Made by a program: the position numbers and the translations under genes | Assembly (NCBI GenBank): GCA_947259495.1 | Contig: CAMYLV010000013.1 | Span: 206,078-270,077 of the forward strand | DNA from: an uncultured Desulfobacterales bacterium | GTDB taxonomy: Bacteria > Desulfobacterota > Desulfobacteria > Desulfobacterales > JAHEIW01 | Direction of reading: 5' to 3' | Length of the DNA stretch: 64,000 nucleotides | The notes under the pieces: generated by a model | Database searches by the model: none | The model's input: only the letters and a program-made list of their open reading frames with translations | Told to the model about the DNA's origin: nothing | Shown: in pieces, positions 7,081 to 63,919 of the stretch | How the letters are laid out: each line of letters begins with the position of its first letter | Numbering within the stretch: the first letter of the stretch is position 1

Positions 7081-7184
7081 TATAGTGGTTGTCAAAAAAA
7101 CGTTCCGATATTCAAACGTTTTTTTCTACAACCACTTATGCCCCAATTCCGTAAATCGGAACACTATTATGGAAAGCGGTATAG
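7081..7184 (+). repeat. 105-bp dispersed palindromic element, copy A
   Basis: Starts TATAGTGGTTGTC, forms a hairpin through ACGTT ... AACGT and ACAACCACTTATG, and ends GGAAAGCGGTATA. Copies B (14948-15050) and E (48429-48530, reverse) share the same order of blocks. A GAACCTATCTCA arm follows at 7209-7220 and supplies the stop codon of the HdrD-like gene. Confidence 0.8.
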
Positions 7185-8483: not shown

Positions 8484-8576
8484 CGCCCCGTCAGTAATAT
8501 AGTCTTACTTAATGGATTCCAATTATCACTGATATAAATTTATAAAATGATCCCGTTTCCCCACATTTTGGTTTCC

Positions 8577-8700
8577 GGTGTCAGATCACAGAGATCAGAT
8601 GTCAAAGGACAGAAAACAGAAATTAAAACATAGAGGACAAAACATATCTTCTGTAATCTGTCCTCTGTTTTCTGTTATCTGTTGACTGATCTCTGACACC
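8577..8700. repeat. Word-reiterating hairpin (CAGA/ACAGAAAACAG words)
   Basis: GGTGTCAG at 8577-8584 pairs with CTGACACC at 8693-8700. Between them the left arm repeats purine-rich CAGA/GACA words and the right arm their complements (TCTGTCCTCTG type). It sits between the HdrD-like gene and the membrane subunit. Confidence 0.75.
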
Positions 8701-8709
8701 TTCCATCTC

Positions 8710-9340
8710 CTAACCGCGCCTGAGCTTGTTCATCGGTAACGACAAAAACGAATGCATACTCTGACTGAACGGAAAAAACATCAAAAACAAATTCGCAAAA
8801 AAGACATGCAGCACCAGTATAAATGAATGGCCCGTGTCGGTCACCTCAACAGGCAACTCCGGCCGGAAGTATAAAAGACTCGAAAGGTAGTCCCGATAAT
8901 GCTCAACCGTTAATTCCTCATAGGCATACCACCTGCGGGCCCAGTCCATCTGACTGCCGAACAAAACGACCAGAAACAGCAGAATCAGCAGATAATAATC
9001 TTCCGGAACCGAAAGTTCCCGCACCGGTGAGATAAAGCGGCGAAACAGAAAATAAAGCAACGCAATTGAAACGATCAAACCCACTAACCCCTGACCCAGA
9101 AATATCTCATGGGGAATCAGTTGCAGCGTTTCGATTTCGCCAAAAAGCTCCAGATGCCCGAGAATAAGCAGCAAGATGCAAATATGAAACGGGTTTTTTC
9201 TCAGGATAGATCTGAAGCGTGGCCGGATATTTGGGCGCGCGAAAGATTTTGATCAAACGGACCGTCGTGCCGATAAAAAAAATGGCAAAGGCAACGTAGA
9301 CCATCGGCACCAGTATGATGTAATATAGTGTATCCAACAT
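8710..9340 (-). pseudogene. Broken NarI/TmcC-like cytochrome b membrane subunit
   Basis: Two overlapping frames encode halves of one membrane protein. The upstream half (9340 down to about 9200) begins with a transmembrane segment MLDTLYYIILVPMVYVAF and reaches IYPEKKP. The other frame resumes with FHICILLLILGHLELFG and continues through several helices to the end FSQSMHSFLSLPMNKLRRG, typical of nitrate-reductase-gamma/TmcC-like subunits. Family members, from memory, carry about 25-30 residues between these two points (a loop and the start of helix 2), so there seems to be a deletion that also shifts the frame near 9195-9205. It could be a real lesion or an assembly gap. Neighbours suggest it anchors the HdrD-like protein and passes electrons to quinone. 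Confidence 0.7.
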
Positions 9341-11779: not shown

Positions 11780-11851
11780 GGGCGGGGATAAACCCCGCCC
11801 CGACAAGACGGATCAAACAGCTTTAGGTAGGGGCGGGCTTTACGCCCGCCC
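11780..11851. repeat. Paired GC-rich hairpins (GGGCGGGG ... CCCGCCC)
   Basis: Two stem-loops, GGCGGGG-ATAAA-CCCCGCC and GGGCGGGC-TTTAC-GCCCGCCC, which are also roughly complementary to each other. They lie after pal and could terminate transcription, although no T-run follows. Confidence 0.7.
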
Positions 11852-11922: not shown

Positions 11923-14295
11923 TTGCGACGCGAACTGAAAATTGCGGTGCGGGAACTCGTCGAATATGTGCTCCGATCCGGGGATCTGGCGTTTGAGTTT
12001 CTGGGATCCAGCCGTCCGGTCGAGGCGATTCGGGCCCATCAAAAAATTCAAAATTCACGTCCCGCTACCTATCAACCCGAAGTTGCGATTACCCATCAGG
12101 TTGAAACCGATCGATTCCGTCTGAGTATCGGCGGCCGCATCGACGGCATAGATAGCGGGCCCGATCGCACCATCATCGAAGAAATAAAAACCACCACCCG
12201 CGACCCGGCTTATTTTGAAAAAACCGAAAACCCGGTCCACTGGGGGCAGGTTAAAACCTACGCCTACATTTATGGGCTTCAAAATGGCCTGGATGAAATT
12301 ACCATCCAGCTCACCTATTATCAGATCGATACCGGCAACCACCGCGAAATCAAGCGCACGTTTAACATTTCAGAACTGGAGATTTTTTTTAATGACCTGG
12401 TAACCCGTTACCTGGAATGGGCCACAACCCTGGTCGATTGGTCCGACCGCCGGGATGCATCAATTCAGGATTTAGAATTTCCTTTTGCAACCTACCGACC
12501 CGGGCAGCGCCAGATGGCGGTGGCAGCATACCGTACGATTCGCAACTGTGGGCAGCTGTTGGTTCAGGCGGCCACCGGTATTGGCAAAACCATCGCCGTG
12601 CTCTATCCGGCCGTCAAAACCCTTGCTGAAAGTCGCGATCAAAAAATTTTTTATCTGACCGCGCGCACTACCGGCCGGATGGCGGCGGAAAAGGCCGTCG
12701 CTGCGCTAAGGACCAAAGGTCTCAGGTTAAAATCTTTAACCCTGACGGCAAAGGACAAGATCTGTTTTTGTCCCCAGAGTGCCTGCCATCCGGATGAATG
12801 TGAATTTGCCCGGGGTCACTATGACCGCATTAATACCGCAGTGGAAAACATCTTCAAGCAGGAGGCCTTTACCCGTGAACAGATTGTCGACACGGCCCAA
12901 GCATTTCGGGTGTGCCCGTTTGAGTTTTCATTAGAGCTGGCGGTCCGGGCGGACTGTATCATCTGTGATTACAACTATGTATTTGATCCGCGCGTATATT
13001 TGCGCCGATTTTTCCAGGAGGAAAACGGTGCCTATATCTTTTTAATAGATGAAGCGCATAATCTGGTGGATCGCTCGCGGGACATGTTTTCGGCCGAAAT
13101 TTTCAAACAGCCGGTATTGGACATTCGCCGGCAGTTAAAAAATGAACTGCCGCAAGTATTTAAAAGCCTCGGCCGCATTAATGCCTGGCTGGTTAAAGCC
13201 CGCAAAAAATGTGAAGCATCGGGCAATCCACTGGCGGAAGAAAACCCGCCGGAGGAACTGATTCCACTTTTGAGAGGTTTTCTTTTCATAACCGAGCGCT
13301 GGCTTTCAAAAAACAAAAAGACAGCCTTTCGCGAGGGCCTGCTTGATCTTTATTTTGCAATATCCGGCTTCATCCGGGTGGCCGATCAATATGATCATAG
13401 TTACACCACCTGCTATGAAAAAAGTGGAAAAGACCTGAAAATCAAGCTGTTTTGTATTGATCCCGCCGTCCATCTCGAACGTGCACTGCAACGGTGTCGC
13501 ACAGCCATATTTTTTTCGGCCACCATGACACCCATCGATTATTTCAAACAAATACTGGGCAGCGAGCCGACCACCCCCCACCTGATTCTGCCATCACCCT
13601 TCCCCGGCGAAAATTTGGGCCTGTTCATCGCCGATCAAATTTCGACCTACTATCGTCAACGGAATCAGACCGTGGACCAGGTAGCGCAGGTCGTTGCAGC
13701 CCTGGTCGGGCAAAAGAGCGGAAATTATCTGCTGTATTTTCCTTCCTACGCCTACATGCGCAAAATTTTTGATGCCTTTACCGCCCGTAATCCGCACACT
13801 GAAATCATTCGGCAAACGCCAGGCATGCCGGAGGCTGCAAGAGAGGCGTTTTTAATGCGTTTTTCTCATGATAACCCGCAAACACTTGTCGGATTTGCAG
13901 TAATGGGCGGAATTTTCGGTGAGGGCATCGACCTGGTCGGCGATCGCCTGGTGGGTGCGGCGGTGGTCGGAGTCGGATTGCCCGGTATCAGTCTGGAAAG
14001 AGAATTGATCAAGGAATTTTTTGCCAATTCCCTGAATGCAGGATTCGAATACGCCTATCTTTACCCCGGTATCAACCGCGTGTTGCAGGCCGCAGGTCGG
14101 GTGATCCGGACAGAAAATGATCGCGGGGTGGTTCTGTTAATCGATCAGCGCTATGCCCGCTATCAATATAAAACCCTGCTTCGCGAAGAATGGGATCCGA
14201 TCAGGGTGCAGGATGCGCAGCAGCTGGCCGGTAGCCTGCAGGATTTCTGGAACCAAAACAATTCACCGCAAAGACGCAGAGAGCGCAGAGATTGA
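11923..14295 (+). CDS. ATP-dependent DNA helicase with N-terminal PD-(D/E)XK nuclease domain (DinG/XPD family)
   Basis: A 790-residue fusion. Residues 1-175 form a RecB/Cas4-type PD-(D/E)XK domain with GRIDGID (metal Asp) and IEEIKTT (Glu-x-Lys), followed by QVKTYAYIYG. Residues 185-780 are an XPD/DinG superfamily 2 helicase: Walker A ATGIGKT (about 218), a four-Cys cluster ICFCPQSACHPDEC (about 280-293) likely binding 4Fe-4S, the DEAH box (about 375), and the C-terminal half with FSATM and a late GRVIRTENDRG. It probably processes damaged or structured DNA. It starts at TTG with no clear Shine-Dalgarno. The last residues (PQRRRERRD) are encoded by a hairpin repeat. Confidence 0.8.
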   Translation: MRRELKIAVRELVEYVLRSGDLAFEFLGSSRPVEAIRAHQKIQNSRPATYQPEVAITHQVETDRFRLSIGGRIDGIDSGPDRTIIEEIKTTTRDPAYFEKTENPVHWGQVKTYAYIYGLQNGLDEITIQLTYYQIDTGNHREIKRTFNISELEIFFNDLVTRYLEWATTLVDWSDRRDASIQDLEFPFATYRPGQRQMAVAAYRTIRNCGQLLVQAATGIGKTIAVLYPAVKTLAESRDQKIFYLTARTTGRMAAEKAVAALRTKGLRLKSLTLTAKDKICFCPQSACHPDECEFARGHYDRINTAVENIFKQEAFTREQIVDTAQAFRVCPFEFSLELAVRADCIICDYNYVFDPRVYLRRFFQEENGAYIFLIDEAHNLVDRSRDMFSAEIFKQPVLDIRRQLKNELPQVFKSLGRINAWLVKARKKCEASGNPLAEENPPEELIPLLRGFLFITERWLSKNKKTAFREGLLDLYFAISGFIRVADQYDHSYTTCYEKSGKDLKIKLFCIDPAVHLERALQRCRTAIFFSATMTPIDYFKQILGSEPTTPHLILPSPFPGENLGLFIADQISTYYRQRNQTVDQVAQVVAALVGQKSGNYLLYFPSYAYMRKIFDAFTARNPHTEIIRQTPGMPEAAREAFLMRFSHDNPQTLVGFAVMGGIFGEGIDLVGDRLVGAAVVGVGLPGISLERELIKEFFANSLNAGFEYAYLYPGINRVLQAAGRVIRTENDRGVVLLIDQRYARYQYKTLLREEWDPIRVQDAQQLAGSLQDFWNQNNSPQRRRERRD

Positions 14296-14384
14296 AAATC
14301 CTTTTGATTTGCCGGCCTCTCAGCGGCAAATGAAAAATATCTTTTCTCAGCGACCTTTGCGTCTCTGCAGTGAGCTAAAAGGCT
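14264..14384. repeat. Word-reiterating hairpin (GCAAAGACGCAGAG words)
   Basis: CACCGCAAAGACGCAGAGAG at its left end pairs with the CCTTTGCGTCTCTGCAGTG arm on the right. The left arm lies inside the last codons of the helicase gene. Confidence 0.7.
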
Positions 14385-14947: not shown

Positions 14948-15050
14948 TATAGGGGTTGTCAAAAAAACGTTTCTGTATTCAAAAGTTTTTTCTACAACCC
15001 CTTATGCCGCACTTCCGTATTCCGGAACATTACTATGGAAAACGGTATAA
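14948..15050 (+). repeat. 105-bp dispersed palindromic element, copy B
   Basis: Same block order as copy A: AGGGGTTGTC, an inverted AACGTT-type stem, ACAACCCCTTATGCCG, TCCGGAACATTACTATGG, and AACGGTATAA. It is followed at 15070-15082 by the GAACCTATCTCAA arm and preceded at 14922 by GGTCATGTCA, which also ends the 24846-25026 palindrome. Confidence 0.8.
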
Positions 15051-17792: not shown

Positions 17793-18968
17793 ATGACAGA
17801 CAACCCTAATTTAACCCACTTGAAATTTGATGAAAAGGAATTCATCCTCATTGGAACTGCGCACGTCTCAAAAGAAAGTACGCGGCTGGTCAAATCAGTA
17901 ATCGAGGAAGAAAAACCGGATACCGTCTGTGTCGAACTCTGTTCGTCTAGATTCCAGGCCATCCAGCAAAAGGATCGCTGGCGGGATACCGATATCGTCA
18001 AAATCGTTAAGGAAAAAAAATCATTTTTGCTTCTGTCGAATCTCCTGCTGGCCTCCTTTCAAAAACGAATTGCCAAACAGTTTGATGTCAAGCCCGGTGA
18101 GGAAATGATAGCGGCCATCGATACCGCTGAATCCGTAGGTGCCCAGATTCATCTTGCCGACCGCGATATTCGCACCACCCTGTCCAGAACCTGGCGTGTG
18201 ATGGGATTATGGAGCAAAATAAAACTGATTTTTCAATTGATGCTGTCCCTGGGACAGCTGGATGAAATCAAAGAAGAAGATATTGAAGAAATGAAGCAGC
18301 AGGACGTTTTGGAAACGCTGCTGGCTGAAGTCGGCAAATCGCTGCCGGAAATAAAAACCATTCTAATTGATGAGCGCGATCAGTATTTGACCGAAAAGAT
18401 TCGCACGGCACCCGGCAACAAAATTGTGGCCGTCGTGGGCGCCGGCCATATCCCGGGAATTCAAAAAAACTGGAATAACGAAATCAATACCCGGGCGCTG
18501 GAACAACTGCCGCCCAAAAGTAACTCCGCCGGGATTCTAAAATGGCTGCTCCCGGCTGTTATCATCGGGCTGTTTCTGGCCGGATTTTTTTTCGGCGGCA
18601 AAAAAGCGGGTACGGACATGATTGTCTGGTGGATCCTGGCCAACGGTATTCTGGCCGGAGTCGGCGCAATCATCGCCCTGGCTCACCCGGCCACCATTTT
18701 GTCCGCCATTCTGGCCGCACCGTTGACCTCGCTTAACCCCATGATCGCTGCTGGATGGGTGTCGGGACTTGTGGAGGCCTTTTCGCGGAAGCCCAAAGTA
18801 AAAGATTTGGAAACATTGCCGGAAGATATTCTATCTGTTCGTGGATTCTGGAAAAACAACGTGACCCGCATTCTGTTGGTGGTGGTATTTACCAATCTCG
18901 GAAGCTCTCTGGGAACCTTTATCGCCTTTCCCGTCATTGTCAAAGTGCTGTTGGGCGCGTCACCCTAG
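17793..18968 (+). CDS. TraB/PrgY-type membrane protein
   Basis: A 391-residue member of the TraB family. The N-terminal half (1-230) carries the domain with LIGTAHVSKESTRLV (about 18-32), CVELCSSR (about 48) and VAVVGAGHIPGI (about 211-222). The C-terminal 150 residues hold about four transmembrane helices. Related proteins are implicated in pheromone inhibition in Gram-positives and are suggested to be metal-dependent proteases. The bacterial role here is not known. It stands alone, with no clear Shine-Dalgarno. Confidence 0.8.
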   Translation: MTDNPNLTHLKFDEKEFILIGTAHVSKESTRLVKSVIEEEKPDTVCVELCSSRFQAIQQKDRWRDTDIVKIVKEKKSFLLLSNLLLASFQKRIAKQFDVKPGEEMIAAIDTAESVGAQIHLADRDIRTTLSRTWRVMGLWSKIKLIFQLMLSLGQLDEIKEEDIEEMKQQDVLETLLAEVGKSLPEIKTILIDERDQYLTEKIRTAPGNKIVAVVGAGHIPGIQKNWNNEINTRALEQLPPKSNSAGILKWLLPAVIIGLFLAGFFFGGKKAGTDMIVWWILANGILAGVGAIIALAHPATILSAILAAPLTSLNPMIAAGWVSGLVEAFSRKPKVKDLETLPEDILSVRGFWKNNVTRILLVVVFTNLGSSLGTFIAFPVIVKVLLGASP

Positions 18969-18972
18969 TAAA

Positions 18973-19061
18973 GGTGTCAGGAAACAGATGACAGATGATA
19001 AAAACTTGAAAATTATTCACCGGATCTGTTTTCTGTCCTCTGTCTTCTGATCTCTGACACC
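18973..19061. repeat. Word-reiterating hairpin (GGTGTCAG ... CTGACACC)
   Basis: Same terminal octamers and internal CAGATGACAGATG / CTGTCCTCTGTC words as 8577-8700. It lies 12 bases before the SPOR-NlpC gene. Confidence 0.75.
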
Positions 19062-26877: not shown

Positions 26878-27975
26878 TTAAGAGTTCCGCTTTTCGCTAT
26901 CCAGATCATTTACATATTGCCGCACTTCATCCAGCAGGACATCCACCAGTTTATCCTGCGCGAATTTCTTAACCACCCGGCCCTTTCGAAACAGCACCCC
27001 GGTACCGTCCCCGCCGGCGATGCCGATGTCCACCTCCTTAGCTTCACCCGGACCATTGACCACGCATCCCATGATGGCGATCTTGACCGGTTCGGCAGTG
27101 GTCATCAAGGCTTTTTCAACCCGCTCAACGATGTCAAACAGCTCAATGCTGCAGCGCCCGCAGGTGGGACAGGCGATAATTTCCGGACCGCGGCGGCGAA
27201 TATCCAGGGCCTTCAGGATTTCGAATCCGACCCGCACCTCTTCAACCGGGTCGCGGGTCAGAGAAACCCGGATGGTGTCACCAATACCTTCAGCCAGCAA
27301 CATACCAATCCCCAGCGCCGATTTAACGATTCCAGGATAAAGGGCACCGGCTTCGGTGACACCGACATGCAGGGGCAGGTCTGTTTTTGTGGACAGGAGC
27401 CGATAGGCTTCCAGTGTGCGCTGCACATCGGACGCCTTGAGGGAAATCTTTATCTGGTCAAAATCCAATGATTTGAGCAGCTCCACATGGCGCATACCGC
27501 TTTCCACCATGCCGGCCGCTGTAACCCCATTGTATTTTTTAAGGATATCTTTTTCAAGGGATCCGGAATTGACCCCGATGCGGATGGGGATATCGTGGTC
27601 CTTGGCACTAGTGACGACGGCTTTGACCTTTTTCAGACCGCCGATGTTGCCGGGATTTAATCGAAGCCCATCCGCCCCGGCTTTAGCGGCCGCAATCGCA
27701 AGCCGGTAATCGAAGTGGATGTCGGCAATCAGCGGAATGTGGATCTGCTTTTTGATGGCCGCGACGGCCTTCGCAGCTTCTTGATCCGGCACGGCCACAC
27801 GTACTATTTCGCATCCGGCTTCTTGCAGTCGCTGAATCTGTGCCACCGTAGCGTCCACATCCGGGGTCGGCGTATTTGTCATGGATTGAACCGCGATGGG
27901 TGCCGCTCCACCGATTTTTACGTTACCGATTGAAATCTGGCGCGTTTTTTTACGCTTAATCTTTGAATGTTGCAT
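26878..27975 (-). CDS. ispG: 4-hydroxy-3-methylbut-2-enyl diphosphate synthase (IspG)
   Basis: Iron-sulfur enzyme of the MEP isoprenoid pathway, 365 residues (short form without the plant insert). The N-terminal TIM-barrel contains VQSMTNTPT and LIADIHFDYRLA. The C-terminal cluster-binding Cys residues are in IACPTCGRCSIELF (about 265-278), with another in IMGCVVNGPGEAKEVDIG. It uses electrons from ferredoxin or flavodoxin. It lies directly upstream of proS. Confidence 0.9.
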   Translation of the reverse strand: MQHSKIKRKKTRQISIGNVKIGGAAPIAVQSMTNTPTPDVDATVAQIQRLQEAGCEIVRVAVPDQEAAKAVAAIKKQIHIPLIADIHFDYRLAIAAAKAGADGLRLNPGNIGGLKKVKAVVTSAKDHDIPIRIGVNSGSLEKDILKKYNGVTAAGMVESGMRHVELLKSLDFDQIKISLKASDVQRTLEAYRLLSTKTDLPLHVGVTEAGALYPGIVKSALGIGMLLAEGIGDTIRVSLTRDPVEEVRVGFEILKALDIRRRGPEIIACPTCGRCSIELFDIVERVEKALMTTAEPVKIAIMGCVVNGPGEAKEVDIGIAGGDGTGVLFRKGRVVKKFAQDKLVDVLLDEVRQYVNDLDSEKRNS

Positions 27976-30369: not shown

Positions 30370-30374
30370 TCTTC

Positions 30375-30476
30375 GGGTTGCCCGTTAGCCTGTTGCGTCC
30401 GTTACCCGTTTGACCCGTACATAAACCTACTGATGAAAACCGGCTAAACCGGCAAACGGGTTAACTGGCCAACCGC
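30375..30476. repeat. Word-reiterating hairpin (ACCCGTT/AACGGG words)
   Basis: TTGCCCGTT...TTACCCGTTTGACCC on the left is countered by ACCGGCAAACGGGTTAAC and GGCCAACCG on the right. A similar word set is at 58657-58750. Confidence 0.65.
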
Positions 30477-30488
30477 GAAGTGTTGTCT

Positions 30489-32318: not shown

Positions 32319-32384
32319 AAAAGCTCCTTTCAATGTAGGCTATTGTTAGGTAACACAACTAAATTACAGAATACGGTTTATTAT

Positions 32385-32547
32385 GGGTGTCAGGTAGCAA
32401 ATCCCCAGGTTCAGGGTTCAAAGGTTCTGGATTCTGGGTTTAGAAGTTATGTTTTCAACGGATTCATGGTTTCTGTTTTCTGACCACTGTCATCTGTTTT
32501 CTGCTATCCAACCGCTGAACCTATGAACGTTGAACCTTTGAACCTAG
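32385..32547. repeat. Word-reiterating hairpin (GGTTCA/TGAACC and TCTGTTTTCTG words)
   Basis: AGGTTCAGGGTTCAAAGG (from 32407) pairs with GTTGAACCTTTGAACCT (to 32545). A GGTGTCAGG start and TTCTGTTTTCTGACC internal words link it to the CAGA family. Confidence 0.7.
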
Positions 32548-32625
32548 CGTTGATTAAAGAGCACAACAGGACAATAATATACCGGACAACCTTTAATACC
32601 AATTTTATGGGATACAATACGAGCG

Positions 32626-34569: not shown

Positions 34570-34720
34570 TGTCTGTTGTCCATTGTCCGTCGTCCGTCGT
34601 CCGTCGCACCACGTACCTGACAATTGTATCTGTGAAAATTCAGCAGATCAAACTTAAAAACCACTCTCAATATAATTATCATCTTGCAACTTACAACAGA
34701 CAACTGACCACGCGCAACTA
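34570..34720. repeat. Word-reiterating hairpin (GTCCGTC / CAACTTACAACAGAC words)
   Basis: GTCTGTTGTCCATTGTCCGTCGTCCGTC with complementary but divergent AACTTACAACAGACAACTGACC near ribD. It overlaps the last codons of ribD. Confidence 0.6.
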
Positions 34721-35809: not shown

Positions 35810-35816
35810 TGCATTC

Positions 35817-35970
35817 AGAGAACAGAAAACAGTCGTCGGAGGTCAGCGGCCAGAAGGCAGATGACAGATGACAGACCACGAATATTGTAATTAACATATT
35901 GAAAGCCAGAACGTATCTGATTACTGTCCTCTGTCCTCTGTTTTCTGCCTTTTGACATCTGCCCTCTGTT
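35817..35970. repeat. Word-reiterating hairpin (CAGA/TCTG words)
   Basis: AGAACAGAAAACAG, GGCAGATGACAGATGACAG on the left; CTGTCCTCTGTCCTCTGTTTTCTGCC on the right. Same class as 8577-8700 and 18973-19061. Confidence 0.7.
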
Positions 35971-35975
35971 AAGGG

Positions 35976-36434
35976 TTACTCCTGTTTACTGAGCAGGGTT
36001 TTGAGTTCAGAAACAAAGTCATTCACGTCCTTAAATTCCCGATAGACCGAGGCAAAACGAACATATGCGACGTCATCCAGGTCATGCAGCATTGTCATGA
36101 TTTTTTCCCCAAGAAAGGACGCCGGTATTTCTTTTTCACCAGTCTCTCTGAGATCCCGTTCGAGATCATCGATGAATTCTTCGATCACATTTATGCTGAT
36201 GTTTCGCTTTTGACATGCTTTTTTTAGGCCGGCAAGTACCTTATCCCGGTTAAATACTTCGCGGCGGCCGTCTTTCTTGACAATCATAATCGGGATTTCT
36301 TCAATGTGCTCGTAGGTTGTAAATCGGCGGGTGCATACAATGCATTCTCGGCGGCGACGGATAACGCTGGCATCTTTACTCAACCTTGAATCGATGACTT
36401 TGTTGTCGATTTCACCACAATATGGACACTTCAT
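35976..36434 (-). CDS. nrdR: Transcriptional repressor NrdR
   Basis: A 152-residue regulator of ribonucleotide reductase genes. The zinc ribbon is [15 protein letters not shown] with the second Cys pair in [10 protein letters not shown] (residues 3-42), followed by an ATP-cone (about 48-138) that senses dATP/ATP. It overlaps the end of the deaminase gene by four bases (ATGA), consistent with a shared role in nucleotide control. Confidence 0.9.
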
Positions 36435-38776: not shown

Positions 38777-38920
38777 AACTGGCTTTAAATGGGCAAGTTT
38801 TTAGCCGAAGACAAGGCGCGGGGAGGAGAATATCGTGCCGCGTAAGTTTTGTACGTTAGCGGTTTTCTCCTTCTTGCAACGCTGTATTCGGTTAAAAGAT
38901 GGCCCATTTAAAGTCAGTTT
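38777..38920. repeat. 145-bp palindromic element with central GTAC stem
   Basis: AACTGGCTTTAAATGGGC (38777-38794) pairs with the GCCCATTTAAAGTCAGTTTT end. The centre has CGTAAGTTTTGTACG. Same length and layout as 43734-43879 and 48957-49101. Its right end is the fabG stop codon. Confidence 0.7.
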
Positions 38921-39680: not shown

Positions 39681-39836
39681 CTAATTGAGCGATGCACGCT
39701 CAATTAGGCGTTAATGGTTATTAGAATTCGATGGCAACCTGATCTTATATTCCCATAACTCGTGAGATATAAAATTAGATGCCATTCCATTATAACCAAT
39801 AACAAATAACGAATAACAGATAACTCCCAATTGGGA
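39681..39836. repeat. Stem-loop and word hairpin (AATAAC / GTTATT words)
   Basis: A perfect CTAATTGAGC/GCTCAATTAG stem (39681-39707), then a GTTAATGGTTATTAG arm against AACCAATAACAAATAACGAATAAC near 39820. Between fabG and the acyl-CoA dehydrogenase. Confidence 0.65.
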
Positions 39837-43671: not shown

Positions 43672-43733
43672 TTTTCAAAGTTTAAATTCACCACAGAGAA
43701 CACAGCGCTCACCGAGTTTATTTTAATTAGTAA

Positions 43734-43879
43734 TTTTTCCAATTTCTGAATGAGGAATTTTTTAATGAGCAAGGCCGCACAAGGCTTTTGGCCTTCGGCG
43801 TACTGTGAGTACGTTGAAGGTCAAAAGCCGCGGAGAACGCAGCTCATCGGAAAAATAACCGTTCAGAAATTGGAAAAAA
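43734..43879. repeat. 146-bp palindromic element with central GTAC stem
   Basis: TTTTTCCAATTTCTGAA (43734-43750) pairs with TTCAGAAATTGGAAAAA (43862-43878). The centre is GGCGTACTGTGAGTACG. It ends just where the tRNA-Gln promoter begins. Confidence 0.75.
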
Positions 43880-43913
43880 TTGACTTGACGGGCGGGCTGA
43901 TGATATATATTTA
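43880..43913 (+). promoter_or_regulatory. Promoter of tRNA-Gln
   Basis: TTGACT (43880) or TTGACG (43885-43890) with TATATA or TATTTA at 43908-43913 after 17-18 bases. The start would be near 43920, just before the tRNA. Confidence 0.5.
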
Positions 43914-43930
43914 AATGTCATTTAACATGC

Positions 43931-44004
43931 TGAGGGATCGTCTAGCGGCAGGACGACGGGTTCTGGCCCCGTTAACCCAGGTTCGAATCCTGGTCCCTCA
44001 GCCA
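43931..44004 (+). tRNA. tRNA-Gln (anticodon CUG)
   Basis: A cloverleaf folds with acceptor TGAGGGA/TCCCTCA, D-arm GTC-TAGCGGCAG-GAC, anticodon stem ACGGG/CCCGT with loop TTCTGGC (anticodon CTG at 43963-43965), T-arm CCAGG-TTCGAAT-CCTGG, and encoded CCA (44002-44004). Reads CAG. Confidence 0.9.
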
Positions 44005-46538: not shown

Positions 46539-46594
46539 TAAGGGGTTGTAGAATAAAACGTTTGAATACCGCAACGTTTTTTTACAACCCCTAT
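46539..46594. repeat. Hairpin half of the 105-bp element
   Basis: AGGGGTTGTAGAATAAAACG pairs with CAACGTTTTTTTACAACCCCT. The GGAACATTATTATG right block is absent. Confidence 0.65.
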
Positions 46595-48428: not shown

Positions 48429-48530
48429 TTATACCGCTTTTCATAATAATGTTCCGAAAAAGGATGGCGGCATAAGTGCTGTAATAAAAAAACGTCCCGC
48501 AATCGGTACGTTTTTTTGACAACCACTATA
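48429..48530 (-). repeat. 105-bp dispersed palindromic element, copy E (reverse)
   Basis: The reverse complement reads TATAGTGGTTGTCAAAAAAA ... CACTTATGCCG ... CGGAACATTATTATGAAAAG, matching copy A block by block. The gap 48420-49183 also contains 48957-49101 and several short open frames without support. Confidence 0.8.
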
Positions 48531-48956
48531 AATCCGCTTTGGCTATTGAATTGTGCGATAAATTATGGTACCAACATTACCAGATGAGGGGGGTGATATC
48601 CTCCAGATTGTCCTAAAAATCAAAAATCCGATTTCGGGGTGGTTTGCCGATCAGACTCTGGCAAAGCGAATATATATTTTTCCCAACATTTTCTGTTTTA
48701 AGTGTCCATTTCGAGATCACCGGCACCATGTTTTTTCCGGTCAATAAGACGGAAACCATGGCGCATGACTTGCAGCTTGAAGATTTTGTCGTGCCGCAGC
48801 CATATTCCCATTCAGACGGGATGGCCATTAGTAGCGGCAGGAGGAGAGCAGATCTGGTTTAAAAGTAGGGGTGATTTCGGATTTAAATTCATTGTGGACC
48901 CATAAAGGGGAAGGACATTAGAGAGTCTATCTGGCTGCCACCCCGATGCTTTTTTC

Positions 48957-49101
48957 AAAGTGGCTTTTAAACCCTCATCTTTTGCCCGATGGCTGCGTTA
49001 GGATCCGCTTCAAAATGCTCGCGTACTGCCGTGTACGCTCCACTTTTGAACCGAATCTTGCCTTGCCCTCGAACAAAATCTAAAGGTTTAAAAGCCACTT
49101 T
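48957..49101. repeat. 145-bp palindromic element with central GTAC stem
   Basis: AAAGTGGCTTTTAAAC (48957-48972) pairs with GTTTAAAAGCCACTTT (49086-49101). The core CTTCAAAATGCTCGCGTACT ... GTACGCTCCACTTTTGAA is the reverse complement of the core inside 25158-25213. Confidence 0.75.
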
Positions 49102-53256: not shown

Positions 53257-53611
53257 GTTTTTCCTCTTCCACAACCTCGATGGACTCGATGTCGAGTTCG
53301 CGCCCGGAAAGAATTTCCAGAGAACCGCTCTGACATGTTTTGCAAATAAAAACAGGCTCGACGATCGTCCATTGCGCATCGCAATCATTACACCTTGCCA
53401 CAACCGGAATTTCTTCAATGGCCAGTTTGGCGCCCTCAAGTGCTGTGCCTTTGATGGCCACATTAAAACAAAACCGCAGGCTTTCAGGCACAACCGCGGC
53501 CAATTTGCCGATTTTGAGATTGATCGCAGCGACCCGGGCATCTCCTAAATCCGCCGGCAGGGAGGCGTTGGCAATTTCAACAATCTGCAGGACGATACCC
53601 ATTTCGTGCAT
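53243..53611 (-). CDS. hypA: Hydrogenase nickel incorporation protein HypA
   Basis: A 122-residue nickel chaperone. It begins MHEMGIVLQI, where His2 is the nickel ligand, and the zinc ribbon is VARCNDCDAQ and FICKTCQSG (about residues 72-94). Ends EEEKHDSG. It overlaps hypB by 14 bases and is 120 bases from sucD across a hairpin. Confidence 0.92.
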   Translation of the reverse strand: MHEMGIVLQIVEIANASLPADLGDARVAAINLKIGKLAAVVPESLRFCFNVAIKGTALEGAKLAIEEIPVVARCNDCDAQWTIVEPVFICKTCQSGSLEILSGRELDIESIEVVEEEKHDSG

Positions 53612-53633
53612 CGATGAATTTCCTATAAAATTT

Positions 53634-53719
53634 AGACAGGATTAACAGGATCTACTGGATATTATTTGGGACATCAGACTTCATCCAAATGATCCTGCAA
53701 ATCTTGTTAATCCTGTCAA
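53634..53719. repeat. Word-reiterating hairpin (GGATTAACAGGAT words)
   Basis: GACAGGATTAACAGGATC on the left; GATCCTGCAAATCTTGTTAATCCTGTC on the right. Between hypA and sucD. Confidence 0.7.
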
Positions 53720-53730
53720 GCAATTATAGC

Positions 53731-54603: not shown

Positions 54604-54642
54604 GATAGGCTCCTATACTATTAAAAACAATAATCTACATAA

Positions 54643-54795
54643 AAGGAATACCGGAATAGTGGGATGTTGGAATGCTGGGTGAGGTACAATGAGATTAAAT
54701 TCTGAATGGATGACCCGCATCGGAAATAAAAATCAGGATACCATCCGCTTTTCATACCCCATATTCCACCATTCCATTATTCCATCAGACACCTG
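54643..54795. repeat. Word-reiterating hairpin (GGAAT / ATTCC words)
   Basis: GGAATACCGGAATAGTGGGATG, then TTGGAATG, against TATTCCACCATTCCATTATTCC. Between sucC and sucD. Confidence 0.65.
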
Positions 54796-54858
54796 ACCAA
54801 ACGTCAGACACCGTTCTTCTGGCATAATTTAAAGCTCAAGCCATTAAACGCCTATTGC

Positions 54859-56084: not shown

Positions 56085-56228
56085 TGGTTCAAGGGTTCAG
56101 CCTTCAAAGGTTCAGAGGTTATAAACTACAGATAGAGACGTGCAGTGGGTTTCCAAAGACAGGGGCAGCAATTGGCAGCAAGAAACCAGAGCCCTTGGAC
56201 CCTGAACGCGGAACCCTGAACCTTTGTT
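56085..56228. repeat. Word-reiterating hairpin (GGTTCA / TGAACC words)
   Basis: GGTTCAAGGGTTCAGCC and TTCAAAGGTTCAGAGG against CCTGAACGCGGAACCCTGAACC. Same word class as 32385-32547. Confidence 0.7.
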
Positions 56229-56231
56229 CCT

Positions 56232-58253
56232 TTAACCGATCACCGCCAATACATCCCCTTTGGCCACTGAATCGCCGCTGCTGAAATTGACGCTTTTAAT
56301 GGTTCCGCTGGCGGGCGACGGCAAAGCATTTTCCATTTTCATGGCTTCCAGAACCACCACGGTTTCACCCTGATTGACGGCATCTCCCTCGTTTTTCTCA
56401 TACTTGACAATCATCCCGGGCATGGGCGCGGTAAGCGGAGTGCCTTCCACCGCTGCGGCCGGGGCAGCAGCCGGCGTCTTGGGCTTGGCTTTTTTGGCTT
56501 CAGCTGCCGCCGGTTTTTGAGCGGCTGGCGCAGCAGCCGGAGCAACCGGTGGTGCGGCGGCCGGCATTTGCATTCCTGCGGCCATTGGCTGAACGTAGCT
56601 GACCACCGGAGAGCCGCCGACTTCGTCCACCGCGACCTCAAAATAGTCATCATCAACAAAGACATTAAATGTCCGGGAGCTCTCGCTTTTTTCCGGTCTG
56701 TCTTTATCTGATTTCTCAACAAGCAGGCCGGCCTTGGCCTTTTTTAACAACTCTTGCTCGGCCATCGCGTCTTGCAGTGTTCTGGGCTGCACATCTTGCG
56801 GGGGCTGTTCCTTGCCGTATTTCCATTTCAAAAAGCGCTTTCCGGTAACCGGGTACAGCGCATAGATCAGGGCGTCGTCCAGATCAGCGGCCAGATCACC
56901 AATTTCTGCTTTGGCTTTTTCCAACTCAGGTTCCAGAACCTCCGCCGGCCGGCAGACAATGGGCTCCTCACCGCGCTCATAGCCTTTGAGCGCCTTTTTC
57001 TGCACCTCCGGATCAATTGGAATGGCGGTTTTGCCGTACAAACCGTAGCACAGGTCTTTTACCTGGCCGGTGATCATTTTATAACGCTCATTTTTGTCGT
57101 CAAACAGCACATTGTTGACCGTCTGGGTGCCCACAATCTGGCTGGTGGGGGTGACCAGCGGAATTTGTCCCAGCTCTTTTCTGACCCGCGGCAATTCGGC
57201 ATAGACCTGATCAATCTTATCCAGTGCATCCATTTCTCTTAGTTGATTGACCAGGTTGGACAGCATCCCGCCCGGTGTCTGGTGGAGCAGCACGTTAATG
57301 TCGATAATGGACATCTTGGTATCATCCAACAGGTGTCGGTATTTGGGCATGATCTCTTTTTCAAGGACTTCGTTGATCCGTGCCATCAACCGAATATCAA
57401 AGCCGGTGTCCCGGTTGGTGCCCAGCAGGGTCATGACCAGAGGTTCGATGGCCGCGTGGCATGTCCGATACGCATACGGTGACATACAGGTATCAATAAT
57501 ATCCACACCGGCTTCGATGGCCTTCAGGTGGGTCATCGGCGACATCCCTGATGTAAAATGGCTGTGCAGGTGAATCGGCGGTTTGACCGCCGCCTTCAGG
57601 GCTTTGATCAGATGAAAGGCATCATAGGGCGCCAGCAGGCCGGCCATGTCTTTGACGCAGATGCTGTCTGCCCCCATATTTTCGAGAGCTTTGGCCTTGT
57701 TAATGTAATAGTCGATATTGTAAACCTCTCCGCCCATGCGCGGCTCGGTCATCGTATAACACATACAGCCCTGGAAATGCTTGCCATACTCTTTAATCAC
57801 CGGGACCACGGTTTCAAAGTTACGATAGTCGTTCAGGGCGTCAAATGTTCGAAAGATGTCCATCCCGTTTTCACAGGTCCTTTCGACAAAGGCCTTGGCG
57901 ACATCATCGGCATAGTTGCGATAGCCTACCAGATTCTGGGCCCGCAGCAGCATTGAAAACGGCGTTTTTTTAACATATCGCTTTAAGGTGCGCATGCGTT
58001 CCCAGGGGTCTTCATTTAAAAACCGGTGCATGGTATCAAAGGTTGCCCCGCCCCAGACTTCCATGGCCCAAAAACCGACGTCGTCCATCATTTCGGCCAC
58101 CGGAATCATATCTTCGGTGCGGCCCCGGGTCGCAAACAGGGATTGATGGCCGTCACGAAGTGACAGGTCTTCGACCTTAACGGGATTTTCCGCCGTGGGC
58201 CGCTCTTTGTCATAATTCATGGTCGTCATTTTTACTTGAATGTCTTCACTCAT
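56232..58253 (-). CDS. Fused carboxyltransferase 5S-like / biotin carrier (methylmalonyl-CoA carboxyltransferase or decarboxylase component)
   Basis: A 673-residue protein. Residues 25-500 are a pyruvate carboxylase B/oxaloacetate decarboxylase alpha-like barrel: LRDGHQSLFATR (about 32-43), the carboxylated Lys in CVKDMAG (about 198) and metal His in HLHSHFTSG (about 228). An Ala/Pro linker (about 575-605) leads to a biotinyl domain with EAMKMEN (about 638). It lies with a 12S-like subunit and mutase, so the likely reaction is carboxyl transfer between pyruvate/oxaloacetate and propionyl-CoA/methylmalonyl-CoA. Pyruvate carboxylase subunit B is the alternative. Confidence 0.8.
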   Translation of the reverse strand: MSEDIQVKMTTMNYDKERPTAENPVKVEDLSLRDGHQSLFATRGRTEDMIPVAEMMDDVGFWAMEVWGGATFDTMHRFLNEDPWERMRTLKRYVKKTPFSMLLRAQNLVGYRNYADDVAKAFVERTCENGMDIFRTFDALNDYRNFETVVPVIKEYGKHFQGCMCYTMTEPRMGGEVYNIDYYINKAKALENMGADSICVKDMAGLLAPYDAFHLIKALKAAVKPPIHLHSHFTSGMSPMTHLKAIEAGVDIIDTCMSPYAYRTCHAAIEPLVMTLLGTNRDTGFDIRLMARINEVLEKEIMPKYRHLLDDTKMSIIDINVLLHQTPGGMLSNLVNQLREMDALDKIDQVYAELPRVRKELGQIPLVTPTSQIVGTQTVNNVLFDDKNERYKMITGQVKDLCYGLYGKTAIPIDPEVQKKALKGYERGEEPIVCRPAEVLEPELEKAKAEIGDLAADLDDALIYALYPVTGKRFLKWKYGKEQPPQDVQPRTLQDAMAEQELLKKAKAGLLVEKSDKDRPEKSESSRTFNVFVDDDYFEVAVDEVGGSPVVSYVQPMAAGMQMPAAAPPVAPAAAPAAQKPAAAEAKKAKPKTPAAAPAAAVEGTPLTAPMPGMIVKYEKNEGDAVNQGETVVVLEAMKMENALPSPASGTIKSVNFSSGDSVAKGDVLAVIG

Positions 58254-58284: not shown

Positions 58285-58402
58285 GTCTGGTGTTTGGTGT
58301 TTAGTATCTAGTTTTTGGTGTTTGGTATTTAGTGTTTGGTGTTTGGTTTTTTTGATGGACGGTCATGTATGCCAAACACAAAACACTCAAACACAAAACA
58401 CC
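58285..58402. repeat. Word-reiterating hairpin (TTTGGTGTTTAG / CAAACACAAAACAC words)
   Basis: GTCTGGTGTTTGGTGTTTAG on the left; CAAACACAAAACACTCAAAC on the right. It lies directly upstream of the fused carboxyltransferase gene, covering its leader. Confidence 0.7.
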
Positions 58403-58632: not shown

Positions 58633-58656
58633 TTGAACTCCTTTTTTATCAAGTTA

Positions 58657-58750
58657 AGCCGGTTGAGCCCGTTTTCCGGTTTTGCCGGAAAAGAATTGGC
58701 CTTCAAGGTCGTAACGGGCTAAACGGGCAAACTGGCCAACGGGCAAACCG
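58657..58750. repeat. Word-reiterating hairpin (CGGGC / GCCCG words)
   Basis: AGCCGGTTGAGCCCGTT and CCGGTTTTGCCGG versus AACGGGCTAAACGGGC and GGCCAACGGGC. Similar to 30375-30476. Confidence 0.65.
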
Positions 58751-58751
58751 A

Positions 58752-60305
58752 TTACATTGGAATATTGCCGTGTTTTTTCGGCGGCCGGGTTTCCCGTTTT
58801 GTGCACAACACTTCCAGGGCATCGATCAGGCGCGACCGGGTCTCGGCAGGTTCGATAACCGCATCAATATAGCCCCGATTGGCCGCCTGATAGGGATTTG
58901 AAAACAGCTCTTCATATTCTTTAATCTTTTCCTGGCGCTTGGCTGCCGAATCCTCGGCCTGCGAAATTTCCTTGCGGTGTATAATATTGGCTGCGCCGGC
59001 CGCACCCATGACGGCAATTTCCGCCGTGGGCCAGGCAAATGCCATATCCGCACCCAGGTCTTCGGAGCACATCGCCAGATAAGAGCCCCCGTAATCTTTG
59101 CGGGTTACCAGCAGCAGCTTGGGCACTGTGGCCTCCGAGTAACACCACAGAAGCTTGGCGCCATGCCGGATGATCCCACCCCATTCCTGTTGGCTGCCGG
59201 GCAGGTATCCCGGCACATCGGCGATAGTAAGCATCGGAATGTTAAATGCGTCGCAAAATCGAATGAAACGGGTGGCTTTGTCCGAAGCATTGATGTCCAA
59301 ACAGCCGGCCAGGACCTTTGGCTGGTTGGCAATAATGCCGATGCTTCTGCCATTCAAGCGGGCAAAACACACCACCATGTTGCGGGCAAAATATTGATGG
59401 GGTTCAAAAAATTCCCCGTCATCGACGATGGACCGAATGACGTCTTTCATATCGTAGGATTTATTGGGGCTGTCCGGGATAATCGAATTTAACGCCGAAT
59501 CTATGCGATGGGGATCATCACCGGTGTCCACAAGGGGTGGATCTTCCATATTATTGGACGGTAGATAGGATAGAAGCCGTTTGATCCGATCGATGGCATC
59601 TTCATCGCTTTCACATGCAAAGTGAGCCACACCGCTCTTTTCATTATGCGTTTTGGCGCCGCCCAGATCTTCAAAGGTGATTTCCTCACCGGTAACGGCT
59701 TTAATGACTTCGGGTCCGGTAATGAACATATAGCCGCTGCCTTTTACCATAAATACCCAATCGGTCATGGCCGGTGAATACACTGCCCCGCCGGCGGTGG
59801 GTCCCATAATCGCTGAAATCTGAGGGATAACACCCGAGGCGGCAGAATTGCGGAAAAAAATCTGTCCGTACCCGGAAAGGGCATCGACACCTTCCTGAAT
59901 GCGGGCACCACCCGAGTCGTTTATACCCACAAACGGCACGCCGGCCTTCAAGGCCAGATCCATGACTTTACAAATCTTTTTGGAATGCATTTCCCCCAGA
60001 CTGCCGGCTCTGGCCGTAAAATCCTGGGAAAACGCAAACACCGGCCGACCATTGACCAGGCCATGGCCGGTGATGACCCCGTCGGACGGGATATCGACTT
60101 TTTGCATGCCAAAATTCACGCAGCGATGATTGACAAACATATCGATCTCGCGAAAAGTTCCTTGATCAAATAACAGGTTAAACCGCTCCCGGGCGGTGAG
60201 CTTGTTTTTTTCATGCTGCTTGGCGACCGCTTTTTCGCCGCCCATCTCAAGGGTTTTGGCTTCACGTGCTTTAAGTTCTTTGATTTTATCTTCGACAACA
60301 CCCAT
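58752..60305 (-). CDS. Acyl-CoA carboxylase/carboxyltransferase beta subunit (12S-like)
   Basis: A 517-residue carboxyltransferase of the PccB/MmdA type, starting at 60305 (AAAGGATACAG upstream; the frame goes to 60371). Two crotonase folds: N half with GDSGGARIQEGV-type INDSGGARIQEGVD (about 110) and C half with AWPTAEIAVMGAAGA. It transfers carboxyl between biotin and propionyl-CoA or methylmalonyl-CoA. Operon context favours propionate metabolism. Whether it works as transcarboxylase, decarboxylase or carboxylase cannot be decided. Confidence 0.85.
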   Translation of the reverse strand: MGVVEDKIKELKAREAKTLEMGGEKAVAKQHEKNKLTARERFNLLFDQGTFREIDMFVNHRCVNFGMQKVDIPSDGVITGHGLVNGRPVFAFSQDFTARAGSLGEMHSKKICKVMDLALKAGVPFVGINDSGGARIQEGVDALSGYGQIFFRNSAASGVIPQISAIMGPTAGGAVYSPAMTDWVFMVKGSGYMFITGPEVIKAVTGEEITFEDLGGAKTHNEKSGVAHFACESDEDAIDRIKRLLSYLPSNNMEDPPLVDTGDDPHRIDSALNSIIPDSPNKSYDMKDVIRSIVDDGEFFEPHQYFARNMVVCFARLNGRSIGIIANQPKVLAGCLDINASDKATRFIRFCDAFNIPMLTIADVPGYLPGSQQEWGGIIRHGAKLLWCYSEATVPKLLLVTRKDYGGSYLAMCSEDLGADMAFAWPTAEIAVMGAAGAANIIHRKEISQAEDSAAKRQEKIKEYEELFSNPYQAANRGYIDAVIEPAETRSRLIDALEVLCTKRETRPPKKHGNIPM

Positions 60306-60421
60306 TATCTGTATCCTTTCATGTAAAAATACTTGCCAGACTGCCTGCAGCCCCTCCTGGCGCTCGGGCAAATGACTACATATTTCTAATGCCGCAAAAT
60401 AAGAGGTAAAAATTAAACTTT

Positions 60422-61555: not shown

Positions 61556-63691
61556 TTATTTGCGCTGCTCCAGCGCATTGAGCACCTGATTGGCGGAATC
61601 GGTCACCGGCGTCCCGGGACCGAAAATGCCGACAACGCCGGCGTCATAAAGCGCCTCATAATCCGACGGTGGTATGATCCCGCCGACCACCACCAATATG
61701 TCCCCACCGCCTTCTTTTTTGAGCGCTGCGATCATCTCCGGGACCAGGATTTTGTGACCGGCGGCCAGGCTGGATGGGCCGACCACATGAACATCATTTT
61801 CCACTGCCATACGGGCGGCCTCCCCGGGTGTTTGAAACATGGGGCTGATATCCACATCAAATCCAAGATCGGCAAAAGCGGTGGCAATGACCTTAATACC
61901 GCGATCGTGACCATCCTGGCCCATTTTGGTCACCAGGATTCTCGGACGCCGGCCTTCTTTTTCCTTGAATTCAGCGGTGCGCTTGCGAATCGATTCTATA
62001 ATTTCACTGTCACCGTATTCGGAAGCATACACACCCGAAATACACTGGGTGGTGGCCACGTAACGCCCGAATGTTTTTTCAAGGGCATCTGAGATTTCAC
62101 CACCGGTGGCCCGGGCCCGCACCGCCGGAATGCAGGCTTCCAGCAAATTGCCGCCGGATTCTGCAGCGTTAACCACAGCCTGCAACGCCTGCTCTAAAGC
62201 CTTTGCGTCCCGGTTTGCTTTGAGCTGCTTTAATCGCGTGACCTGCTCATCCCGAACGCTGGCCGGAACTTCAAGAATCTCCAGATCCACGTCCTCTTCG
62301 ATCGGGTATTTGTTGACGCCCACAATGACGTCTTTGCCCTGGTCGATGCGCGCCTGCCGGCGGGCAGCTGCCTCTTCAATCCGCATTTTGGGCATACCGG
62401 TTTCAATCGCTTTTGCCATACCGCCCATTTCTTCGATTTCATCGATGATTTTACCGGCCTCGCGAATAATGCCGTCGGTTAAGGACTCGACGTAGTAAGA
62501 GCCTGCCAGCGGATCAACGGCATGGCAAATCTGAGATTCTTCCTGAACAATCAGCTGGGTATTGCGCGCAATCCGGGCCGAAAAGTCGGTAGGCAGGCCG
62601 ACCGCTTCGTCAAAAGAGTTGGTATGCAGCGACTGGGTTCCGCCCAGGGCGGCCGACAGACATTCCAGCGTGGTCCGGATAATATTATTATAAGGATCCT
62701 GGGCCGTCAGGCTCCAGCCCGATGTCTGACAATGGGTGCGCAGCATGGTTGAGCGCGGATCTTTGGGATTAAACTGACTGATAATTTTATGCCACAGAAA
62801 CCGCGCTGCCCGCAACATAGCGATTTCCATAAAAAAGTTCATACCGATCCCGAAGAAAAAAGACAGCCGCGGCGCAAAAGTGTCAATATGCAGCCCGGCA
62901 TTGAGGGCCGCCCGAACATATTCCAGCCCGTCAGCCAGGGTAAAGGCCGCCTGCAGCACGGAGTCGGCCCCGGCCTCCATCATGTGATAACCGCTGATAC
63001 TGATGGTGTTGTAGCGGGGCATGTGGCTCGAACAATAACCGATAATATCAGAAACAATTCGCATGGACGGTTCCGGCGGATAGATATAGGTGTTTCGGGT
63101 CAGGTATTCCTTTAAGATGTCATTTTGGATGGTTCCGGCCAGTTTCTTCTGACTGACGCCCTGTTCTTCAGCGGCGACTATGTACCCGGCTAAAATAGGC
63201 AGGACCGCACCATTCATGGTCATGGAAACCGTCATCTGATCCAGCGGAATCTGGTCAAACAAAATTTTCATATCTTCAACCGAGTCTACCGCCACACCGG
63301 CCTTGCCGACGTCCCCGCTGACCCGTGGGTGATCGGAGTCGTATCCGCGGTGAGTCGCCAGATCAAATGCCACCGATAGCCCTTTTTGGCCGGCAGCCAG
63401 ACACCGGCGATAAAAGGCGTTGGACTTTTTGGCAGTGGAAAACCCGGCGTATTGCCGGATGGTCCACGGCCTTCCCGCATACATGGTTGCCCGGGGACCC
63501 CGCATGTAGGGTTCCAGACCCGGCAGCGTATTGAGATGACCCATTCCCTCGAGATCTTCAGCCGTGTACAAGGGCTTTACGGGTATACCTTCCGGTGTCT
63601 TCCAGTCCAGGGATTCCAGCGGTTTGCCCCTTAACGCTTTTTCGGCAAGCTCCTGCCATTTTTTAATATCCGGGTGTTTTGCCATGGTCAT
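61556..63691 (-). CDS. Methylmalonyl-CoA mutase (single-chain)
   Basis: B12-dependent mutase of 711 residues. The TIM-barrel part begins [11 protein letters not shown] (about 35) and includes [13 protein letters not shown] (about 79). The C-terminal cobalamin domain has the base-off motif GQDGHDRG (about residue 590), with [10 protein letters not shown] and GGIIPPSD later. The single polypeptide with both domains fits the large subunit of a homodimer-type enzyme. It interconverts succinyl-CoA and (R)-methylmalonyl-CoA. An AAGGAGC ribosome site precedes the ATG at 63691. Confidence 0.92.
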
Positions 63692-63768
63692 TTGCTCCTT
63701 TTTTAAATCATTTTCCCACGAAACGAATACTTTTAGATAAATGGTTACAATTAGAATTTTAGTGTTCG

Positions 63769-63871
63769 CATGTCAGCAAACAGATGACAGAGGGCAGAAA
63801 GGGTGCTTCCTATTCCAGGTTTTACCATCTGTTTTCTGTCATCTGACCTCTGTCAACTGAATCCTGACACG
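63769..63871. repeat. Word-reiterating hairpin (TGTCAG ... CTGACA)
   Basis: TGTCAGCAAACAGATGACAGAG on the left; CATCTGTTTTCTGTCATCTGACC and CTGACA on the right. Same class as 8577-8700 and 18973-19061. Confidence 0.7.
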
Positions 63872-63919
63872 TGCCACTTAATTGATTTGCTGCAATCGAC
63901 AACCGGGCTCAACCGAAAT

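Follow-up and report, generated by a model that had tools for sequence, protein, structure and literature searches.

Intergenic hairpins built from reiterated short words: about ten word classes within one Desulfobacterales genome

Cyanobacterial genomes carry heptanucleotide tandem repeats between genes, known as STRR. Intergenic heptamer repeats of unknown function have been described in Xanthomonas (GGGAATC/(GGGANTN)n) and Nostoc (GGGGA(C/T)T), and in two Xanthomonas genomes 70 and 75 convergent inverted pairs were counted, with 89-93% of the repeats being intergenic (PMC4692102). As described there, most downstream repeats lie within 50 nt of a stop codon, some overlap the stop, and divergent gaps are under-represented; after a stop codon the G-rich strand is the coding strand in Xanthomonas, whereas Nostoc prefers the non-coding strand (PMC4692102). 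Direct repeats of TAACTGA occur in Beggiatoaceae, cyanobacteria and Bacteroidetes. In the BOGUAY genome these are reported mostly just before start codons, as 169 direct sets and one indirect set, and between two Cyanothece strains their indels are mostly in 7-nt steps (PMC4679880). Thiomargarita has palindromic repeat motifs together with TAACTGA (PMC4853749), and for REPINs compensatory changes are reported as common, with clusters beside RAYT genes (PMC3116915). No account of the word families described below was found among the top-ranked matches in the literature, a set in which few subscription papers were covered.

The window analyzed here is a 64-kb stretch (G000:C13:206078-270077) of a draft genome (4.44 Mb, 69 contigs). 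A first-pass annotation of this window had listed 15 intergenic hairpins whose arms are tandem near-repeats of short words. Each site was compared, as its own 221-nt stretch, with 200 dinucleotide-preserving shuffles. The inverted repeat was matched by none of the shuffles at 13 sites and by a single one at 56085, which bears out the claim of arm complementarity beyond shuffled controls at 14 of the 15 sites (at most 1/200); the signal was weaker at 34570 (12/200). Word reiteration with a period of 6 to 10 was above chance at 13 of the 15 sites (0-6/200). It was borderline at 14264 (period 9, 16/200), and at 11780 it was matched by 157/200 shuffles, so that site is a plain hairpin with no word array and the description of its arms as near-repeats did not stand. 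The best period at the 13 clear sites was 7 at eight sites, 8 at 32385, 54643 and 58657, and 9 at 30375 and 53634. Among 52 random control stretches of the window, none reached an inverted-repeat score of 16 and one scored at least 9 for words. Scanning 40 gaps led to the per-site picture again, and hairpins without words were likewise common. The elements are collected in Table 1.

Table 1. Hairpins and word arrays of the window. Coordinates are window positions and carry no strand assignment; the shuffle columns give the shuffles that matched the inverted repeat or the word reiteration.
Position	Element	Words (nt)	Inverted repeat	Word reiteration	Context
8570..8700	CAGA/TCTG hairpin, outer word GGTGTCAG	7	0/200	0/200	just after gene 8710-9174(-); in family alignment
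11780..11851	GGGCGGG/CCCGCCC hairpin, not a word array		0/200	157/200	
14263..14373	GCAGAG/CTCTGC hairpin	9	0/200	16/200	
18973..19061	CAGA/TCTG hairpin		0/200	0/200	5 nt past stop of gene 17793-18968(+)
30371..30480	CCGTT/AACGG hairpin	8-9	0/200	6/200	convergent genes on either side
32415..32544	GTTCA/TGAAC hairpin	7-8	0/200	0/200	TCTG words within right half
34583..34717	GTTGTC/GACAAC element, array strong, pairing weak		12/200	0/200	
35815..35992	CAGA/TCTG hairpin		0/200	0/200	class identical in 3/3 congeners
39704..39816	GTTATT/AATAAC hairpin	7	0/200	0/200	none called in G001, G003
53623..53729	ACAGGAT/ATCCTGT hairpin	9	0/200	2/200	same gap in G001: GTTATT hairpin
54653..54783	GGAAT/ATTCC hairpin	8	0/200	0/200	same gap in G001: CACCGCAAAG hairpin
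56086..56222	GTTCA/TGAAC hairpin		1/200	1/200	just after carboxylase-like gene 56232-58253(-)
58285..58402	GTGTTT/AAACAC array and hairpin	7	0/200	0/200	
58639..58761	CCGTT/AACGG hairpin	8	0/200	0/200	spans stop of gene 58752-60371(-); G002: ATTGAAT hairpin
63758..63881	CAGA/TCTG hairpin		0/200	0/200	between mutase-like gene 61556-63691(-) and next same-strand gene

In the GCAGAG hairpin, the left arm includes, at 14263-14295, the last codons and the stop of a helicase-like ORF (11923-14295, + strand), as if the element had been substituted for the original end of this ORF. The 64 kb of the window contain 15 inverted repeats that score at least 8 for words, compared with 9 in 200 kb made up of ten 20-kb stretches of the same genome that had not been picked for TCTG (L027, L032-L038, L049 and L050).

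The words had been said to differ between classes, each with its own set, and this was confirmed together with recurrence: four classes were searched genome-wide and all recurred in the genome of the window, with reversed patterns found there 0-2 times. Within its own genome CTGTTTTCTGTNNTCTG matched 34 times against 0 for the reversed pattern, AATAACN x3 11 times against 2, TGAACNN x3 10 times against 0 and ACTCCANN x3 10 times against 0, with matches of the last three patterns overlapping inside any given array. Across the five other genomes of the bacterial family, the respective counts were 9-57, 18-65, 13-35 and 0-24. Elsewhere in the order, CTGTTTTCTGTNNTCTG gave 1-2 matches in 5 of 34 genomes. 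Counts of the remaining three patterns were also made in four of the genomes outside the family. G011 had 20 matches to AATAACN, which overlap and represent few arrays, and 9 to TGAACNN against 12 reversed; G030 had 9 to TGAACNN against 1 reversed; all remaining counts were 0.

Placement and word order were determined in a larger hairpin set from about 740 kb of four genomes, comprising 309 inverted repeats, of which 106 had a word score of at least 9 and 97 of these were mostly intergenic; stretches of the own genome were chosen partly for TCTG matches, so the density of hairpins in this set is biased. Gene calls came from ORF scoring within this analysis, with seven ORFs added by hand, and are not curated annotation. 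Among gaps of at least 60 nt, word hairpins occurred in 76 of the 286 between co-directional genes, 12 of the 59 between convergent genes and 4 of the 79 between divergent genes; inverted repeats without words occurred in 46, 18 and 22 of the same gaps, respectively. Word hairpins in co-directional gaps lay a median of 11 nt from the upstream stop and 49 nt from the next start, with 57 of 78 nearer the stop, and an annotated stop codon was spanned 20 times by the 97 hairpins. The first-pass annotation had located the hairpins in gaps within operons as well as at ends, and this was correct. A hairpin of GAGGACGAG words with a period of 6, unlike the others, was observed at G003:C111 8922-9011 (L042) and 27639-27723 (L043), one copy being in a divergent gap.

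With class labels taken from word patterns drawn from elements already seen, a word was followed by its complement in 111 cases and the reverse order was found in 0, the 111 not being separate elements because classes overlap in this count. Unpaired arrays consisted of the word 68 times and of the complement 61 times. The G-rich arm came first in 82 of the 97 word hairpins and the C-rich arm in 13, with 2 ties; of 117 inverted repeats without words, 69 were likewise G first and 41 were not, the other 7 being ties. Elements with unread bases were left out of the G-first count, of the first own-versus-cross comparison of arms and of the count of G-U and A-C mismatches, both given below. By eye, GGG is present here and there in the arrays of GTTCA and CCGTT, and CAGA, GTTATT and GTGTTT words are free of it.

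The CAGA/TCTG class was characterized in depth using 73 paired elements from four genomes, all of them CAGA...TCTG and none in reverse order. After alignment, 43 lay in + and 30 in - orientation, around a loop with a consensus near TGGTAAAAACTGGAAGATGAAGC. The CTG cores were spaced by 7 nt 235 times and by 14 nt 18 times. Linker letters varied, the third being the most variable at 1.77 bits. Elements held 2-15 words in the left arm and 3-15 in the right, and their outer ends were ragged by whole words. Minority letters made up 8.7% of cores, 33.5% of linkers and 41.4% of the loop, a difference that in part reflects selection bias, since the elements were chosen by exact cores. A family sequence model was built from 38 of the 73 elements, those at directly addressable loci with loops of 24-36 nt. 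Its matches in the six host-family genomes numbered at least 144, 100, 132, 152, 82 and 58 (both strands, 142 candidates scored per genome) and included the element at 63758, matched at G000:C13:269848-269931. In the rest of the order it gave 2-15 weak matches in 10 of 24 genomes, with E no better than 7.5e-7. Relative to gene direction in annotated co-directional gaps, 16 of 23 elements pointed one way and 7 the other, a lean too small to read. CAGA/TCTG is one homologous repeat family with a direction and a common loop.

TCTG words were found well outside this family. Among the matches listed, and going by record titles, TCTGTNN x3 occurred in many phyla, including Omnitrophota, Planctomycetota, Nitrospirae, Accumulibacter and Gallionella, and a contig scan yielded at least 118 stretches, 22 of which had CAGA words within 120 nt upstream. 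Facing CAGA and TCTG arrays were seen in distantly related bacteria, Gallionella and Planctomycetia among them (L076, L083, L121, L163 and others), and in some distant pairs, read by eye, the loop contains an inner hairpin rich in GC (Accumulibacter, L084).

Loops within a class were more alike than shuffled loops in several classes: z was 39.9 for TCTG (61 loops), 24.5 for GGTGTCAG, 11.7 for ACGAAG, 5.6 for GTTCA and 3.4 for GTTATT, the last on four loops only. Thus, four classes beyond CAGA/TCTG also have common loops. Loop homology was weak or absent for GTGTTT (z 2.5, 6 loops), unclassed elements (z 2.2) and GGAGTA (z 1.0, 4 loops); in three classes loops were too scarce for this comparison.

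The first-pass annotation had argued that simple drift would not keep arms complementary. For comparison, arms were picked by word runs alone, and each was paired with its own partner or with arms of other elements of the same class. Own partners had no advantage among the 73 CAGA/TCTG elements (mean score 19.1 own versus 20.8 cross), for which the direction of the element is a likely reason. An own-partner excess was equally absent from GTGTCAG (n=22, 16.4 versus 16.9), GTTCA (n=9, 12.4 versus 15.3), GTGTTT (n=7), GTTATT (n=5), ACGAAG (n=9) and CCGTT (n=5), with p from 0.57 to 1.00 in these six smaller classes; GGAGT had only two elements, too few for the comparison. An own-partner advantage seen earlier in six of eight classes (p <0.05) came from arms that had been picked by their own pairing, and was gone once arms were defined by word runs. 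Covariation between arms was also absent from CAGA/TCTG, the only class of sufficient size for this analysis: 903 of 2,071 variable-column cells were complementary versus 882 ± 17 after shuffling, and RNAalifold on 38 of the 73 elements gave 10 pairs with 0 compensatory changes and a covariation term of 0.01. Since there was neither an own-partner advantage nor covariation, the complementarity of CAGA/TCTG arms looks inherited from a palindromic ancestor. Drift from such a family ancestor is enough to account for complementarity, and the argument against drift fails, own arms pairing no better than foreign ones in seven classes.

The window is collinear with contig C33 of the congener G001, aligned stretches being 78-87% identical, and also with parts of G002 and of G003. 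An ortholog was available for 58 of 120 gaps, and 118 of 120 gap pairs were counted, two being left out for unread bases. Among 98 orthologous co-directional or convergent pairs, a word hairpin was present in both genomes in 17, in G000 only in 13, in the relative only in 7 and in neither in 61; among 20 divergent pairs, the relative alone had a word hairpin in 2. A narrower count restricted to the window (62 pairs) gave 16, 10, 4 and 32, respectively. Detection in gap pairs misses some hairpins, such as the CACCGCAAAG hairpin of G001 at 54604-54858, which is plain by eye and was not called. Congeners are 78-88% identical overall in aligned stretches and are thus too far apart to show precise insertion; no clean empty site was seen in the orthologous gaps read by eye.

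Where both genomes had a word hairpin, the class was the same in 10 pairs and different in 7. Class changes included CCGTT versus GGAGT in G001 at 30370-30488, ACAGGAT versus GTTATT in G001 at 53542-53730 and GTTCA versus GTGTTT in G003 at 32334-32625. Hairpins of different class at the same gap were somewhat over-frequent (7/20 versus 7/68, odds ratio 4.7, p 0.014, on pairs that are not independent). Three of the seven cases are CAGA versus GTGTCAG, which have the CAG core in common, and without these the comparison is 4/17 versus 7/68. This over-frequency could reflect a role at the site.

Other hairpins were also observed in the window. A second type, GTGGTTGTCAAAAAAACGTT...AACGTTTTTTTCTACAACCAC and its variants, lies at 7084-7136, 14951-15002, 46541-46592 and 48486-48517 and recurs elsewhere in the genome (L029, L033, L035, L049 and L050); its T runs, present on either strand, point to a terminator that works in both directions or to a repeat of a separate kind. 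Longer hairpins, about 106-157 bp in size, lie at 38777-38919, 43729-43885, 48957-49101 and 48429-48534. The stretches 43736-43876, 48958-49100 and 48429-48534 each have at least 12 congener matches among those listed, about 75-94% identical, and so the word hairpins occur alongside homogeneous repeat families of the ordinary sort.

Taken as a whole, the hairpins are genuine, they recur, and they belong to a kind that has been described before but lacks an explanation. Each arm strings together words of 7-9 nt in which the core is fixed and the linkers are freer, with word number varying by copy. We think it probable, with moderate confidence, that they are several families of short (about 90-180 bp) non-coding dispersed palindromic repeats, copied as DNA inside a single bacterial family and tolerated at the 3' ends of genes. 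Copies would be inserted by some DNA-level process, probably via a folded single strand, and word number may then shift through slippage or recombination in word register. Survival at gene ends would follow from the removal of insertions in genes and promoters, and arm complementarity would have been handed down from the family ancestor. Several observations count against these dispersed families. The orthologous gaps read by eye showed no clean empty site, and the ragged whole-word ends are unlike those of a classical mobile element. Plain drift is insufficient for cores that are far better conserved than loops, although selection bias contributes to this difference, and the descent of one family does not explain TCTG words across many phyla. 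The faint loop homology of GGAGTA and GTGTTT, the over-frequency of different classes at the same gap, the lean of TCTG elements relative to gene direction and the earlier own-partner advantage also belong on this side. No mobilizing enzyme was found, the candidate examined being Y1_Tnp. Y1_Tnp genes occur at three loci in the own genome, and to a distance of about 1.5 kb none of these loci has an inverted repeat that scores at least 14; over 30 genomes Y1_Tnp number does not track repeat number (G006 has 12 and G014 has 24, both with 0 model matches). Mobilization by a RAYT was thus unsupported by both neighborhood and copy number.

A role in RNA, in which a hairpin after the stop codon ends transcription or protects the 3' end of the mRNA and pairing is selected whatever the words, fits the sites just past stop codons, their near-absence from divergent gaps and the persistence of hairpins in the same congener gaps, at times with another word class. 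It nevertheless appears unlikely. A selected RNA hairpin should show more G-U, and mismatched cells on the transcribed strand of 78 elements were G-U in 116 and A-C in 146, with no excess of G-U and thus no support for selection at the RNA level; own arms were no better matched than foreign ones, and CAGA/TCTG lacked covariation. An Rfam scan of the window at gathering scores returned only the tRNA at 43931-44001. A role at transcript ends, raised in the first-pass annotation as something to check, found no support in the sequence: at least 6 T in the 8 nt downstream followed 6 of 78 hairpins versus 9 of 78 on the other side, which is no T-tract signature of intrinsic terminators. Arrays might instead grow from short seeds by polymerase slippage, like simple sequence repeats, with template switching giving the inverted partner. 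Length differences in whole words, perfect arrays of like kind in other genomes and the published over-representation of heptamers, as described in PMC4692102, are in keeping with this origin, which we consider quite unlikely: independent slippage at each site would not yield loops that are homologous within several classes, or the positional consensus and direction of the TCTG class, and a single word order was found.

Two further proposals take the word order as their starting point. All classes might come from one machinery that writes class-specific word strings in a fixed order, mostly with the G-rich arm first, at gene 3' ends, such that a gap can swap word sets; if so, the TCTG words of different phyla would each have arisen from widespread word-writing and would not descend from one repeat. 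We regard this as very doubtful. A telomere-like end extension, in which a templated polymerase adds class-specific words to broken DNA ends that are then joined, would give word, gap and complement in one order. The order of 111 to 0, the lead of the G-rich arm in 82 of 97 hairpins (C-rich 13, ties 2), the ragged ends and the different words at the same gap agree with it; the loops common within several classes and the G-first lean of wordless inverted repeats (69 to 41, 7 ties) speak against it, and it seems extremely improbable.

Good pairing of an intergenic hairpin is no proof of an RNA structure under selection, and here the pairing looks inherited from a family ancestor. Intergenic heptamer arrays occur in many bacteria; about ten classes, congeners with matching gaps and a strict word order provide a setting in which the origin of heptamer arrays can be tested.

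Compared with known systems, the word hairpins are closest to the Xanthomonas and Nostoc repeats in having heterogeneous words of 7 nt, some positions being fixed and others free, as in CAGA/TCTG (other classes here have 8- or 9-nt words), two convergent arrays close together (here 111 versus 0 in reverse), sites near stop codons and an under-representation in divergent gaps. They also resemble cyanobacterial STRR in being tandem heptamers between genes. Like TAACTGA as described, they include intergenic 7-nt repeats with a patchy distribution over phyla; TAACTGA repeats of the BOGUAY genome are reported as nearly all direct and mostly just before starts, whereas those here form hairpins past stop codons. 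With REPINs, as far as the published description goes, they have in common that they are palindromic, dispersed, extragenic, many per genome and of several flavors, but neither compensatory arm changes nor repeats beside Y1_Tnp genes were found here. For MITEs, which are marked by fixed terminal inverted repeats and a target-site duplication, the point of comparison here is ends that are ragged by whole words. The Xanthomonas and Nostoc account, in what it describes, deals with one word per genome chosen for G4 formation, in contrast to about ten classes with words of 7, 8 and 9 nt here, and the loops common within several classes here point to repeat families. The combination of many word classes, three word lengths and common loops is what is new, and the new part is the presence of about ten word classes within one genome.
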